IMG/VR virus record: IMGVR_UViG_3300036885_000122
Location: 1-21,500 of that record
Reading direction: 5' to 3' (one strand)
Length of the DNA stretch: 21,500 nt
From: a virus
Shown piece by piece: positions 1 through 20,802 of the stretch. The translations under genes were made by a program, and so were the position numbers. The first letter of the stretch is position 1. Each line of letters opens with the position of its first letter. The notes under the pieces were generated by a model. It did no database searches, was not told the DNA's origin, and saw nothing but the letters and a program-made list of their open reading frames with translations.

Positions 1-14960
<14,960 letters not shown>

Positions 14961-16453: not shown

Positions 16454-17056
16454 TTATAATCTTCTGTATGCTCTTCCGTTCCCTTTATTTTTTGCTTTAA
16501 AGGTTGGGAGAAGAGCATCACAATTACAACAAACAAATCTAAAGTTTGATGGAAGATTATTATTATGATTTCCGTCAATATGGTCTACCACTAAAGGAAC
16601 AGATTGCCCCATCCATTCTTCAATATCACATATCGAACATTTTTTATCTTTTGTTATTTTTCTAAAATAGACTCTTGCTGGATAATCAGGCAAGAGACCA
16701 TTTTCGAAATCATCTTTTAATATTTCTATAGATTTTTTATGTTTATATTCCCCCATACAAAATCGAGAACAAAATTTATGCGAACCTTTTTTAATTAGAT
16801 TTCCACAATTTAAGCACGGTTTTGTTTTACTTATTCTTTTAGCGCCATTGTAAAGCGCAGAGCAGGTGTTGTTGCAAAAGTTATATCTAAGTCTTTTTAA
16901 ATAAGGGATAGACTTTCCACATTGTTTACATTTTTTTGGATTTTTTAGATATTCATTTCTTATTTTTTCTTGGTTTATTTTTCTAGTCTCATTCCCTTTT
17001 TTTGCAGCATCTAAAACTCTTTGCCAAGATTCTTCACTTTTAAAAAACTCATTCAT
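16454..17056 (-). CDS. HNH homing-type endonuclease with zinc-finger N-terminus
   Basis: A 200-residue protein. Two Cys4 zinc-binding units come first (C43/C46/C61/C65 and C81/C84/C96/C100). A third CxxC (C140/C143) opens the HNH core: VVDHIDGNHNNNLPSNFRF at residues 156-174, then CCNCD and a closing KAKN. H159 and N171 match the metal and scaffold positions; the residue after the last CxxC-type knuckle is Asp (D180), where many family members have His. Such proteins nick or cut DNA and act as free-standing homing endonucleases in phages. The start is supported by AGAGG seven bases upstream. Its leader carries the same pseudoknot RNA as the two GIY-YIG genes here, although the nuclease families are unrelated. 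Confidence 0.88.
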   Translation of the reverse strand: MNEFFKSEESWQRVLDAAKKGNETRKINQEKIRNEYLKNPKKCKQCGKSIPYLKRLRYNFCNNTCSALYNGAKRISKTKPCLNCGNLIKKGSHKFCSRFCMGEYKHKKSIEILKDDFENGLLPDYPARVYFRKITKDKKCSICDIEEWMGQSVPLVVDHIDGNHNNNLPSNFRFVCCNCDALLPTFKAKNKGNGRAYRRL

Positions 17057-17070
17057 TTTCTTGCCTCTTT

Positions 17071-17145
17071 AGCCTCATAAAATAAGAAGAGAGAAGGGAG
17101 GCTACCTTTTCGGCTGGCTCATGACTTCCAGCCTATCTCTCTTCT
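17071..17145 (-). ncRNA. Endonuclease-associated pseudoknot RNA, copy A (HNH leader)
   Basis: In minus-strand order: P1 5' arm (17145-17137), an ATA(G) joint, P2 hairpin (17133-17128 with 17117-17112) with loop AAGTCATGAG, a purine-rich joint, PK 5' arm AGCCTC (17103-17098), P1 3' arm (17093-17085), and PK 3' arm GAGGCT (17076-17071). The PK 3' arm lies two bases before the AGAGG ribosome-binding site. P1 and PK sequences differ from copies B and C, yet all still pair. Confidence 0.75.
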
Positions 17146-17150
17146 CTAGA

Positions 17151-17229
17151 GCCACACAGAGGAATCGAACCTCTCTTTTCAACTCCGTCTACGGATAGTT
17201 CATTACAGGTGAACTCCGGTTAGTGCGGC
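17151..17229 (-). tRNA. D-armless tRNA-Thr(UGU)-like element
   Basis: The ends form a 7-bp acceptor stem (17229-17223 with 17157-17151, one G-U pair). The T-arm (17174-17158) has a perfect 5-bp stem and the canonical loop TTCGATT. A 17-nt arm (17214-17198) has stem GTTCA/TGAAC and the 7-base loop CCTGTAA, which reads as anticodon UGU (Thr) at 17207-17205, but with C instead of U at position 33. Only eight bases link acceptor and anticodon arms, so there is no D-arm. A 23-nt variable region contains a small hairpin (CCG-TAGA-CGG). CCA is not encoded. An alternative D-stem (ACCGG/CCTGT, one mismatch) would destroy the anticodon arm. It may be a working atypical tRNA, a decayed tRNA, or a tRNA mimic. 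Confidence 0.55.
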
Positions 17230-17232
17230 ATT

Positions 17233-17257
17233 TTGGGGGAAGTAAATTTCCCCCTTT
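17233..17257. other. Strong GC hairpin between the 78-residue gene and the tRNA-like element
   Basis: GGGGGAA and TTCCCCC form a 7-bp stem with a short loop. No T run follows on the minus strand, so it does not look like a minus-strand terminator. It could be an RNA processing or stability element, or a weak terminator for plus-strand transcription. Confidence 0.4.
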
Positions 17258-17269
17258 ATTGCGAGTACC

Positions 17270-17506
17270 CTAGCCTCGACAGCTACAATCTTTTCTTTCA
17301 ATTTCGGTAAGGTCAAGCGGATAGCTGCATAGTATTTCACATACTACGTCTTGCCATGCATGCCTTACTTCTTCGGATAATTCGTCAAAGGGGATGGTTT
17401 CACCCATCCCACTTTTGCCAACCATTTCGTCTAAATATCTATGATAGGCTTCATAAGCCTTACGTGCTAAGATTTCTCTAGCCCATTTTTCCAATGAAAC
17501 CTCCAT
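17270..17506 (-). CDS. Hypothetical small phage protein, 78 residues (or 74 from an internal TTG)
   Basis: An acidic, helical protein; the stretch from about residue 8 to 60 (REILARKAYEAYHRYLDEM ... DELSEEVRHAWQDVV) resembles small phage proteins of unknown function with a 'W/F-x-x-L-x-x-x-x-R-x-A-W' core. It ends in a Cys-containing tail (KDCSCRG). The ATG at 17506 has no ribosome-binding site upstream; instead GGAGG lies inside codons 1-3, five bases before a TTG at codon 5. The true start may therefore be TTG at 17494. It follows the second GIY-YIG gene after a 150-base leader. No function can be assigned. Confidence 0.7.
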   Translation of the reverse strand: MEVSLEKWAREILARKAYEAYHRYLDEMVGKSGMGETIPFDELSEEVRHAWQDVVCEILCSYPLDLTEIERKDCSCRG

Positions 17507-17656
17507 TTCTGTTTTTCAAAACGGGCGGGAGAGGGGTCTACACCATTTCTACTTACAATAATCTGCCCCTGAATAAACTTGCGAATAAACAGAAACACCT
17601 ACCATAAATAGAACTCCACTTTATAAAGCTGGTGAGGCTTTGCCCGGTATACCCAA
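17507..17656 (-). promoter_or_regulatory. Structured leader of the 78-residue gene
   Basis: A perfect 9-bp long-range helix (TTTCTGTTT at 17595-17587 with AAACAGAAA at 17515-17507) closes directly against the upstream ATG. Inside it AGGGG (17570-17566) pairs with CCCCT (17536-17532). Further upstream is a CTTTATAAAG palindrome (17619-17628). No clear promoter was seen. The fold could control access to the start region, or be a leftover of an intron or cassette end; both are inference. Confidence 0.4.
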
Positions 17657-18385
17657 TTATTGCGGAAAATTTAAAGGACGCGGAAGATTATTTTTAATGA
17701 TATATTTATCATATAATTTAGCAGCGTCGATTTCTAGTTTTGCTTGTCCAATATGAATAGCCTTTCCGTTCTCGGTAATTTGTGCTACCCAATAAATCCA
17801 TTTATAATGGTCAAAACATTTTGAAACACCAAAATATGCAGATGTTGAATTAGGACGCTTTTTACCATAAATAATATTTTTTTTACCAAGATGACTTTCA
17901 CTTAATTTTTTTCGATGTTCATCTGAGCGTATCCGGTGATAATTCCAATTTTTTTCTTTTGAAACTCCTTCACTTATACTTTTCTTGTGTTTTTCTGGTA
18001 AATGTCTTCCCCATAAAGGACTATTTTCTCCTCGAAGATTTTTCTCGAAATGCGCTTTCGACATTTTTCGTTTTGCTTTCTTAGAGTGTTTATACCCGGT
18101 CATAGTCGCTTTACCGCCCCAAGAAATATTATAGCCATTTTCTGAAATATGCGAATAAAAAATTTTGATACAGGCTATTTCATAATATGCCAATATATTT
18201 TTATCTGGTTCACAATAAAGTAAGACATACTTTTTAAAATTTTCTTTTCCATATTTTTTAATAGCATTATCAAGGACAATACAATTAGTGTGCTTTGCAA
18301 ACATTCTTTTTTTAATATTGAGACCTTGCCCGATATATTTTTTGCCATTGACTAAATTTTCAATACAATAAATTCCACTAATCAT
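17657..18385 (-). CDS. GIY-YIG homing endonuclease with NUMOD3 and AP2-like DNA-binding domains (copy 1)
   Basis: A 242-residue protein. The GIY-YIG nuclease core spans residues about 1-90: GIY at 4-6, KKYIG at 15-19, the likely catalytic R27, E69 as the metal ligand and N86. Repeated NUMOD3-type segments follow (about 98-114, 119-141 and 152-168), then an AP2-like domain at about 182-239 (YFGV...WIYWVAQI...AAKLYDKYI...LNFP). Such enzymes make site-specific DNA breaks that spread their own gene. GTGGAG five to six bases before the ATG serves as ribosome-binding site. The first 20 residues and the leader nearly match copy 2, so the two are paralogues. It is inserted between the DUF2828 gene and the 78-residue gene. 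Confidence 0.92.
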   Translation of the reverse strand: MISGIYCIENLVNGKKYIGQGLNIKKRMFAKHTNCIVLDNAIKKYGKENFKKYVLLYCEPDKNILAYYEIACIKIFYSHISENGYNISWGGKATMTGYKHSKKAKRKMSKAHFEKNLRGENSPLWGRHLPEKHKKSISEGVSKEKNWNYHRIRSDEHRKKLSESHLGKKNIIYGKKRPNSTSAYFGVSKCFDHYKWIYWVAQITENGKAIHIGQAKLEIDAAKLYDKYIIKNNLPRPLNFPQ

Positions 18386-18396
18386 GTTATCTCCAC

Positions 18397-18470
18397 ACTC
18401 CTAAAAATAAATCCGGGGAAAACAGGAGTTTGTTTTGTCAGTCAGGTAGCGAGCCGAACCTATCCCCGGA
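18397..18470 (-). ncRNA. Endonuclease-associated pseudoknot RNA, copy B (GIY-YIG 1 leader)
   Basis: P1 pairs TCCGGGG (18470-18464) with CCCCGGA (18418-18412). An ATAG joint leads into a weaker P2 (about 18459-18454 with 18446-18441, one mismatch), then TGACAAAACAA. The PK 5' arm ACTCCT (18429-18424) pairs with AGGAGT (18402-18397) outside P1. Ribosome-binding site GTGGAG follows directly. The P2 loop lacks the AAGTCATGAG shared by copies A and C. It begins 12 bases after the DUF2828 stop codon. Confidence 0.7.
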
Positions 18471-18482
18471 ATCTATTACATA

Positions 18483-19994
18483 CTATTCTTTTATGACTGT
18501 AATGCAGTCGTAAATCGGGTCGTTTAATACATCAACCATAGAATCATAGGCGGTAAAACCAACGTTTTTAAGAATCGCTTTAAATATTGACGTTGACTGA
18601 CCGGAAGCCAACTGGACACCGTGCTCGTCCATTTCGGCATGGAAAACATTTTGGCGTGCATCTACTTGCCAGTAGACCATGTTAGGCAATTCGTAACCTT
18701 CCTGTGCATAATCCGCCTTCATCTGTGCATTGAAAGTCATACCGCGTGGATTTCTAGCGGAATCGATTTCCATATCAGAGATGATAATAATTGACTTCGG
18801 CATGTCCGTCTGTGGAACGTGGTACTTCACAGCAGTATCCAACACGAGGTCAAATACAGCCTGTAAATCCGTGTTCTCACAAATCGCAGGAATGCACTTT
18901 ACCTTATCCTTCAAAGTCTTACCGGTTAAGGTAATGAAGTTAGGCTTTCTAGAGAAGGTGATGAACTGTCCCTTGAACTGCCCCTTGTTGCGCTCGGCAA
19001 AGTAAACAGCCAAGCCAATAGAAGTAGCAATAGGGCGTCCCTGCATAGAGCCGGAAGTATCGGCAACAATAAGTACATTATCACCGTCTTCCACATAGTT
19101 GGGAAGTGCCTTCCACTGCTCTTCAAGAGCGGCATCCCATTCAGGCAAAGAGAAAGTTGAATTGCCATAGCGACCTAAACCATACTCATAACTCTCGCGC
19201 AAACCCATCTTTTCCATAATGTCGTATGGGTACAGAGTACCGGAGTGAATGACCGCTTCACCCTTTTGTACGTTCTCGATGAACTTCGTGAACCCATCAG
19301 GGTCATGGCGTCCAAATGCCTTGCGGTAGTTTGCCATAGCCTTGCTAGGTACTGCGGAATAGTTAATCTTATCCCACGCCTTTGCAGACATGAAAACTTC
19401 GGTCAACTTCAACCATCCACGAAGCATGGAAAGGGTCTTGCGATAATCACGCTCGCTGTAGCCAAGATGCTTTGCGGTCAACTTACCAAGTTTGCGAGAT
19501 TCTGCACTGCTGGTATTAATGGACTTTAACCACTTAGCCAAAAGGGAAATAGGCTGTCCATGCGTATAGGCAGAAACATCCTTTACCCACTGTTCGGAAA
19601 TCAAACTCCAAGCAGTGTCTTCGACTCCCGTTCCAATAAAGGAATAGATATCGTCCCAACGTCCGAACTCAGGAATATGGAGCATGTTCCGAACTGCGGT
19701 ATCATGCTGACTATTGGCAAGCCAAACCCACATGCGGCGTGAAACTTCACGTTCACCCAAACCACCACGCACATTGCGTGCGTAGAAAGAAAGCTTGGTG
19801 GCAAGCAAAGGATTTTCCTTGTATGCCAACTCGAACATGGAGTCCACATCATGTGGGCGGGTTCTTAAAGCTCCCACAGTTCCAAATAAATCAAGTAGAG
19901 CACTACCCGTTGAACCGAGAGCGTTTGCCCCGTTTTCGGTTAGGGTTTGGCTGGCATTGCGCATTAAGTAACTAGAAAAATTATTGTTGGTCAT
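18483..19994 (-). CDS. DUF2828-type protein with C-terminal vWA domain (Ro/TROVE-like layout)
   Basis: A 503-residue protein. The N-terminal ~295 residues are helical and contain NPLLATKLSFYARNVRGG at 61-78 followed by LGERE, a signature of DUF2828 proteins of phages and some eukaryotes. A von Willebrand A domain follows from about residue 305, with metal-site residues DTSGSM at 312-317, T375 in the ENTDLQ segment and D407 in IIISDMEID. A helical domain followed by a MIDAS-type vWA domain is also the layout of Ro60/Rsr RNA-binding proteins; the link to Ro is inference. Its start overlaps the end of GIY-YIG copy 2 by 14 bases, and AGAGG lies nine bases before the ATG inside that gene. The long structured RNA leader lies upstream in the same predicted transcript. 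Confidence 0.85.
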   Translation of the reverse strand: MTNNNFSSYLMRNASQTLTENGANALGSTGSALLDLFGTVGALRTRPHDVDSMFELAYKENPLLATKLSFYARNVRGGLGEREVSRRMWVWLANSQHDTAVRNMLHIPEFGRWDDIYSFIGTGVEDTAWSLISEQWVKDVSAYTHGQPISLLAKWLKSINTSSAESRKLGKLTAKHLGYSERDYRKTLSMLRGWLKLTEVFMSAKAWDKINYSAVPSKAMANYRKAFGRHDPDGFTKFIENVQKGEAVIHSGTLYPYDIMEKMGLRESYEYGLGRYGNSTFSLPEWDAALEEQWKALPNYVEDGDNVLIVADTSGSMQGRPIATSIGLAVYFAERNKGQFKGQFITFSRKPNFITLTGKTLKDKVKCIPAICENTDLQAVFDLVLDTAVKYHVPQTDMPKSIIIISDMEIDSARNPRGMTFNAQMKADYAQEGYELPNMVYWQVDARQNVFHAEMDEHGVQLASGQSTSIFKAILKNVGFTAYDSMVDVLNDPIYDCITVIKE

Positions 19995-20715
19995 AGCAGT
20001 TTTCCTCTGGAAAATTTAATAGACGATTAGTTTTGTTTTCTACAACATATTTATCGTATGCTTTTGCGGCTTCAACATCGGATTTAAACATTCCGATATG
20101 TTTTTTATCAACTCCGCATAACCAATACACATATATTTTATTTTTATAATGAACAATACGCTTATATACGCCGTGATAAACAGATGTTGCACTTTTTCCT
20201 TTTTTATCATAGCCGGGATGATTTTTACCTGACAATGTTGTTCTTTTTTGTAATTCTTTTTCTTTGGCTGGTATGATGCGCCCTTTTAAAGTATTGCTTA
20301 TTTTTTGTTTTTGCTCATCTGAGACGGTTTTACCATAATTCGGGTTATTTTTTCCTGACATCTTTTCACTCATTATCTTTTTAATACCATCGGAAGGAAT
20401 AAATCCAAATCTGCCATCTCCGCCTTTTGTCATATTGTATCCATATCCGTTATCAATAAAAGAATTATAATATTCTATAAAATATATTTCCATTAGTTTT
20501 AATATTTCTTCTTTTGGCGGATATTTTTCAACAATCCAAAACTTAAAATTTTCTTTTCCGTATTTATTCCAAGCATGTTGAAGATAAATATTATTGTGAT
20601 AGTTCTTTTTTAAAGAACGCTTGTGCTCTTTCCATCTGGCAGGAATATTAACCGCATAACCAATATATTTTTTACCATTCATTAAATTTTCAATACAATA
20701 AATTCCACTATTCAT
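19981..20715 (-). CDS. GIY-YIG homing endonuclease with NUMOD3 and AP2-like DNA-binding domains (copy 2)
   Basis: A 244-residue protein with GIY at residues 4-6, KKYIG at 15-19, likely catalytic R27, E76 as metal ligand and N94. A NUMOD3-type segment (GKNNPNYGKTVSDEQKQKIS, about 121-140) is followed by an AP2-like domain at about 178-236 (YHGVYKR...YWLCGV...AAKAYDKYV...LNFP). It shares its first ~20 residues, C-terminal pattern and leader with copy 1. GTGGAG five to six bases before the ATG is the ribosome-binding site. It is the first gene after the strong promoter and its end overlaps the DUF2828 start, so the insertion supplies the translation signal region of the next gene. Confidence 0.92.
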   Translation of the reverse strand: MNSGIYCIENLMNGKKYIGYAVNIPARWKEHKRSLKKNYHNNIYLQHAWNKYGKENFKFWIVEKYPPKEEILKLMEIYFIEYYNSFIDNGYGYNMTKGGDGRFGFIPSDGIKKIMSEKMSGKNNPNYGKTVSDEQKQKISNTLKGRIIPAKEKELQKRTTLSGKNHPGYDKKGKSATSVYHGVYKRIVHYKNKIYVYWLCGVDKKHIGMFKSDVEAAKAYDKYVVENKTNRLLNFPEENCYDQQ

Positions 20716-20726
20716 TATATCTCCAC

Positions 20727-20802
20727 ACTCCGTAAAATAGAAACGAGAAAACCGGAGTTGGTCTTGTCAAGCGGCTCATGACTTCCGCTCTATCTCGTTT
20801 CT
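20727..20802 (-). ncRNA. Endonuclease-associated pseudoknot RNA, copy C (GIY-YIG 2 leader)
   Basis: P1 pairs AGAAACGAG (20802-20794) with CTCGTTTCT (20747-20739). An ATAG joint leads to P2 AGCGG/CCGCT (20789-20785 with 20774-20770) with loop AAGTCATGAG, identical to copy A. TGACAAGACCA follows, then PK 5' arm ACTCCG (20758-20753), which pairs with CGGAGT (20732-20727) outside P1. The ribosome-binding site GTGGAG starts two bases later. Confidence 0.78.

Follow-up and report, generated by a model that had tools for sequence, protein, structure and literature searches.

Why should genes for endonucleases of unrelated classes be preceded by one and the same RNA? The question is raised by a 21,500-nucleotide (nt) stretch of viral DNA (positions 1 to 21,500 of IMG/VR record IMGVR_UViG_3300036885_000122, hereafter the window), in which three short leaders, A, B and C, lie upstream of one HNH and two GIY-YIG endonuclease genes. 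All three leaders, and the genes discussed here, are on the minus strand. A preliminary description of this DNA had proposed that the leaders share a pseudoknotted fold; a covariance model derived from relatives (R2, below) does match all three. We argue that this leader is probably a cis-acting translational switch in which one loop chooses between two partners, and that it has been inserted together with its open reading frame (ORF) as a block.

Each leader RNA is 59-62 nt long, and the adjoining ORF starts 24-29 nt further downstream. The order of elements is a closing helix (P1), the joint UA, a hairpin (P2) with loop L2, the joint GA(A/C)AA, a second hairpin (P3) with loop L3, and the 3' arm of P1; a short U-rich linker then leads to an arm of 6-7 nt complementary to L3, the ribosome-binding site and the start codon. 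The leader RNA is a three-way junction of P1, P2 and P3, and the 5' arm of the pseudoknot is L3: what had been described as a purine-rich joint holds the P3 hairpin (AAGG/CCTT in A, AACA/TGTT in B, GACC/GGTT in C). Copy A occupies 17086..17144, with P1 arms at 17136-17144 and 17086-17094, P2 with L2 at 17112-17133 and L3 at 17098-17104, and precedes an HNH/treble-clef-like protein of 200 amino acids (aa; 17056-16454, that is 16454..17056). Copy B (18411..18471; P1 arms 18463-18470 with 18412-18419; L3 18424-18430) precedes a GIY-YIG + NUMOD3 homing endonuclease of 242 aa (18385-17657, 17657..18385), and copy C (20740..20801; P1 arms 20793-20801 with 20740-20748; P2 with L2 20769-20790; L3 20753-20759) a second one of 244 aa (20715-19981, 19981..20715), the end of whose gene overlaps the start of a DUF2828 gene. 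Minimum-energy folding of A and C yields P1, P2 and P3 (fold z of -2.8 for C). The pseudoknot pairs proposed at the outset (AGCCTC/GAGGCT in A, ACTCCT/AGGAGT in B, ACTCCG/CGGAGT in C) are all present, as is the loop common to A and C, AAGTCATGAG, which is identical in these two L2 and missing from B; the sequence of P1 is different in every copy.

Chance falls far short of explaining the shared fold, which pattern scans of viral sequence turned up in more than 100 further contigs. We built two covariance models from such relatives, R1 and R2, with A and C in the training of both and B in neither; their E-values are rough. R2 scores A at 64.5 bits (E 1e-13), C at 59.7 bits (E 1.5e-12) and B, the most divergent of the three, at 23.6 bits, with an E of 0.001 that refers to a search of the window alone. 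The models also found relatives upstream of endonuclease genes in phage contigs. The claim of the preliminary description that helices are kept while their sequence changes extends well beyond the window: across 72 aligned copies 89% of cells pair, and of the 18 nested pairs all but one (17) show double changes. Covariation scores 0.725 in the alignment, 0.195 after shuffling and 0.09-0.16 with slid partners, a large margin even for an alignment that, being fitted to the model structure, leans towards it.

The initial scan favored a single L2 loop, and most copies come from metagenomic contigs. The 14-base L2 core occurs in more than 119 viral contigs, dozens of which hold the whole fold; a large share of the core matches lack the fold and were screened out by covariance model. 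A stricter pattern with both joints found more than 119 viral contigs, and a single occurrence in 257 billion bases of bacterial and archaeal genomes, on a contig of 3.7 kilobases (kb) that was also the one match of R1 among 395 Clostridia-type genomes. The copy B loop as a query gave three matches, all unrelated, and a pattern for another P1 class gave mostly chance matches. BLAST searches of consensus leaders against isolate phages and plasmids returned no convincing leader, a match in Alteromonas phage PB15 proving to be coding sequence. Isolate phages that encode relatives of the endonucleases or of DUF1376 proteins (L260-L271) gave no match to the RNA, which is thus no constant companion of these protein families. 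Nor was it found in the Rac (ydaU, DUF1376) and CP4-57 (intA-alpA) regions of E. coli.

The preliminary description recognized no known motif, and on this point it needs correcting, because family members reach the gathering threshold of an Rfam entry, int-alpA (RF02996). The leader family has the int-alpA layout, P1-UA-P2-GAAAA-P3-CU-P1, with the same junction and joints (UA, GAAAA, CU). The threshold of 35.8 bits is passed by second copies in phages L083 (41.9 bits) and L044 (39.0 bits) and by copies in L193 (37.7 bits) and L165 (36.5 bits), and many further relatives lie just under it (26-35 bits). The window copies give no match to RF02996 even at E<=1. Since relatives pass the threshold and the window copies do not, the window RNAs belong to a broad family containing int-alpA, not to int-alpA as Rfam defines it. 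A search with an int-alpA-like pattern found copies in 31 contigs. R2 detects these copies too, and HNH-like ORFs are among those that follow them; in phage G430 there are two copies, which differ in loop type. The RF02996 model matched none of 100 Clostridia-type genomes, a search in which the RF02996 controls were likewise without a match. Rfam lists int-alpA as a small RNA and prints a consensus structure without a pseudoknot, and our literature search found a bare mention of it, with no function described. At the leaders (the window at E<=1, other leaders sampled) no relevant match to another Rfam family appeared; an RsmZ-like match at 17383-17523, at 22 bits against a gathering threshold of 44, was taken as chance.

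What could the pseudoknot be for? The ribosome-binding site adjoins the leader RNA, as first described, and in the family L3 has complementary sequence at two places downstream: in the proximal arm, which directly follows P1, and in a second copy located in the ribosome-binding/start region. In contig L010, for instance, L3 GACCTTTC stands opposite both GAAAGGTC and GAAAGGTT; in L411, which has no Shine-Dalgarno (SD)-like sequence, L3 AGCAACGG stands opposite CCGTTGTT twice, and the second copy ends 2 bases before the ATG. We compared the pairing of each L3 with its own tail and with tails swapped in from other leaders, which preserves the general anti-SD character. Among 52 non-redundant leaders, the best helix reaches 16.85 versus 10.80 with swapped tails (z = 16.1) and the second, non-overlapping helix 13.19 versus 8.56 (z = 14.1). 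The same holds in an int-alpA-like set (n = 21; z = 9.1 for the best and 8.2 for the second helix), which thus has the two-partner L3 of the rest of the family, and in a set chosen regardless of L2 (n = 45; z = 11.6 and 9.0); in each of the three sets the observed values were reached in 0 of 10,000 permutations. Generic anti-SD complementarity as the source of the distal pairing is rejected at the family level by these swapped-tail controls and by leaders that lack an SD-like sequence and retain the distal copy (L094, L411 and L426). Both helices are found in 48 of the 52 leaders, and in all 48 they draw on common L3 nucleotides, so that the two pairings are mutually exclusive, implying a putative translational switch. 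Between the end of the distal arm and the start codon the median distance is 5 nt, and in the int-alpA-like set this arm is almost universally shown in the loop of a further hairpin, P4. The Rfam entry describes no second L3 partner, P4 hairpin or endonuclease association. In copy A of the window, L3 (TAGCCTC) can form 7 base pairs (bp) with the proximal arm GAGGCTA (17070..17076) and 5 bp (GCCTC/GAGGC) with the ribosome-binding site AGAGGC (17063..17068), both backed by the family-level permutation test. The corresponding proximal arms are AGGAGT (18397-18402) in B and CGGAGT (20727-20732) in C, each followed by the ribosome-binding site GTGGAG (18391-18396 and 20721-20726, respectively).

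We infer from these pairings that translation is controlled. The leader would sit at or near the 5' end of the mRNA and act in cis, its junction running through P1, UA, P2, GAMAA, P3 and (C)U back to P1. L3 would pair with one of two near-duplicate sites. Bound to the proximal arm, it would keep the ribosome-binding/start region accessible (ON); bound to the start region, which some subgroups would present in the P4 loop, it would hide that region (OFF). The junction and L2 would presumably bias the choice, be it through a small ligand, a protein or L2-L2 dimerization. Among the roles suggested at first, gating of translation is the best supported.

The L2 loop offers one candidate trigger. 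Scans left free at L2 return mostly 10-nt loops with central palindromes (TAGCTA, TCATGA, TAATTA, TGATCA, GATC); TCATGA is the center in window copies A and C. All 17 distinct loops have complementary bases at the adjacent positions 6 and 7 (AT in 9, GC in 8; p = 1e-4), and 15 of the 17 have them at positions 5 and 8, where three pair types occur (0 of 20,000 shuffles). These p-values are optimistic because the loops are partly related to each other. As a single hairpin loop cannot form such central pairs, they imply either kissing between two RNAs or the upkeep of a palindrome in the DNA; the self-complementary, covarying centers suggest that kissing dimers may form. Neither these centers nor the two-site complementarity of L3 appears to have been described before, and the preliminary description missed both, together with P3. 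A version of gating in which L2 homodimerization would measure transcript, and hence infection, load, on an RNA mobile with homing endonucleases of several superfamilies, strikes us as doubtful though worth keeping in mind. The palindrome is missing from copy B and from int-alpA-type copies, so dimerization is not essential family-wide.

The genes behind the leader bear on what it could sense. Among 94 distinct downstream proteins, where one protein can match several families, DUF1376 is the most frequent family (38); others are HNH_3 (13), AP2 (6), GIY-YIG (5), HNH (4), treble-clef DUF4379 (4), LAGLIDADG_3 (2), T5orf172 (2), phage integrase (2) and HTH_36 (2). The RNA thus precedes GIY-YIG, HNH, LAGLIDADG-like and treble-clef nucleases, and the early observation of one RNA before unrelated nuclease families holds in the window and in its relatives; it is not nuclease-specific, however, since it also precedes integrases and, most often, DUF1376 replication genes. 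The name int-alpA implies a place between an integrase gene and alpA, whereas the leader family precedes nucleases, DUF1376 and other genes. With products so unrelated, simple autoregulation by the encoded protein is ruled out, and any signal read by the leader must be general. The same diversity tells against an operator at which a protein of phage or host would repress or activate translation, L3 pairing being a by-product. The conserved joints UA and GAMAA and the conserved L2 types could be protein contacts; yet the factor could not be the unrelated products themselves, the RNA is common to phages of apparently distant hosts, and no candidate protein was found. We hold such an operator to be unlikely.

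The start of the transcript raises a further alternative. A sigma70-like -10 hexamer lies 3-12 nt upstream of P1 in 55 of 87 relatives, against about 7 of 87 control windows, and its distances to P1 peak sharply at 6 nt; this spacing indicates that the transcript probably begins at P1 in the relatives. The window copies lack a clear -10 element, and copy A comes straight after a tRNA-like sequence. An RNA whose first helix seems to lie at the transcription start could be a 5'-terminal stability element that protects the mRNA from 5'-dependent decay without switching translation, and the leader matches exonuclease-resistant viral RNAs in general layout, a three-way junction in which a loop forms a pseudoknot with the 3' tail. 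Protection of this kind would not explain why L3 is complementary to the start region as well, or why the spacing to the start codon is tight, and we regard it as rather improbable.

How did three copies come to stand in one genome? A sequence from a related phage, L272, drawn from a 75-kb contig whose DUF2828 protein is 78% identical to that of the window, has none of the three RNA + nuclease units, and R2 finds no match in L272 with filters off, nor in the whole contig. At each of the three sites, homology between window and L272 ends 0-25 nt upstream of P1: at the end of the tRNA-like sequence for A, near the end of the DUF2828 gene for B and upstream of that gene for C. The RNA therefore lies at the 5' edge of each insertion, and the insertions are intergenic. 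As judged from these empty sites in one related phage, RNA and ORF are inserted as a block between phage genes, in line with the cassette first envisaged. Insertion at three sites, along with L2 centers that are palindromes in DNA, could also point to a DNA-level or mobility feature, a site for the nuclease or a partner, with transcription incidental. Covariation in three helices and two L3 pairings speak for selection on RNA, in relatives a promoter stands at the start of P1, and the RNA also precedes DUF1376 genes; we consider a DNA-level role very improbable. A relic of a group I intron or ribozyme that once carried the endonuclease, another early suggestion, is hardly credible: homing endonucleases are often intron-borne and the strand order loosely recalls P3/P7, but no intron or ribozyme family matched (the window at E<=1, leaders sampled), so that the leader is not a group I intron, no sign of a ribozyme was found, the insertions are intergenic, and relatives precede replication genes.

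The tRNA-like sequence (window ~17148-17228, minus strand) directly before copy A has a 7-bp acceptor (GCCGCAC/GTGTGGC) and a T-arm, and neither ARAGORN nor Rfam calls it; L272 has a diverged tRNA-Thr-like sequence in its place. Leader + nuclease units also stand close behind tRNA genes in L003, L093, L125 and L199. The last of these, a virus-classed contig, has three leader copies and eight tRNA matches, among which lies a bacterial RNase P RNA (RF00010; 4936-5200, minus strand; 113.9 bits). The window's DUF2828/DUF7788 protein (18483-19994, minus strand) is flanked on either side by an RNA + GIY-YIG unit, and in Mycobacterium phages a similar stretch carries the annotation Ro-like RNA binding protein. 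Positions ~1-14900 form a very long run of collagen-like repeats; the many plus-strand PVTPV-type ORFs there look like shadows of a minus-strand GPQG-type gene, with a relative at the start of L272.

Several points weigh against a translational switch carried in as a block. Of the two helices the proximal one is stronger in most cases (52 of 73), which may make the OFF state rare. P4 is modestly enriched overall (z = 4.2 against simple shuffles) and weak outside the int-alpA set. Pairing of the leader with the ribosome-binding site is seen at the family level, as complementarity; among the window copies L3 can form 5 bp with the distal site in A and no more than 4 bp in B and C, so that the window alone would not have revealed the second partner. 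The empty-site argument draws on a single related phage, and the 3' boundaries of the insertions are blurred.

The predicted switch has both precedents and differences among known systems. In phage T4, leaders of homing endonuclease genes (the I-TevI, segB and mobE hairpins) can hide the ribosome-binding site (PMC2988022). Like the window leaders, these are RNA structures upstream of free-standing homing endonucleases; they are simple hairpins that vary by gene, whereas the leader family keeps one conserved pseudoknotted junction before unrelated genes in many phages. The family has a riboswitch-like layout, with conserved joints as its core and the two competing L3 pairings as a predicted expression platform. 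Riboswitches of the preQ1-II and SAM-II type are compact pseudoknotted leaders in which a pairing competes for the Shine-Dalgarno region. By its predicted pairings the leader resembles them, without any such Rfam match and with a loop that would choose between twin sequences. The kissing loop of the HIV-1 dimerization initiation site (DIS) has 9-10 nt, a central 6-nt palindrome and flanking purines. The palindromic L2 loops look alike in all three respects, in a different context and function and with some members lacking the palindrome.

The orphan Rfam entry int-alpA now falls within a broad family of cis-acting phage leaders whose switch design can be put to the test, since the two-partner loop and the palindromic loop allow point mutations with clear predicted outcomes. 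That one RNA stands before four kinds of nuclease, and is inserted with them, suggests that free-standing homing endonuclease genes have this RNA in common as a regulatory part. It may represent an RNA answer, used by phages and selfish nucleases alike, to the problem of timing the expression of toxic and replication proteins.

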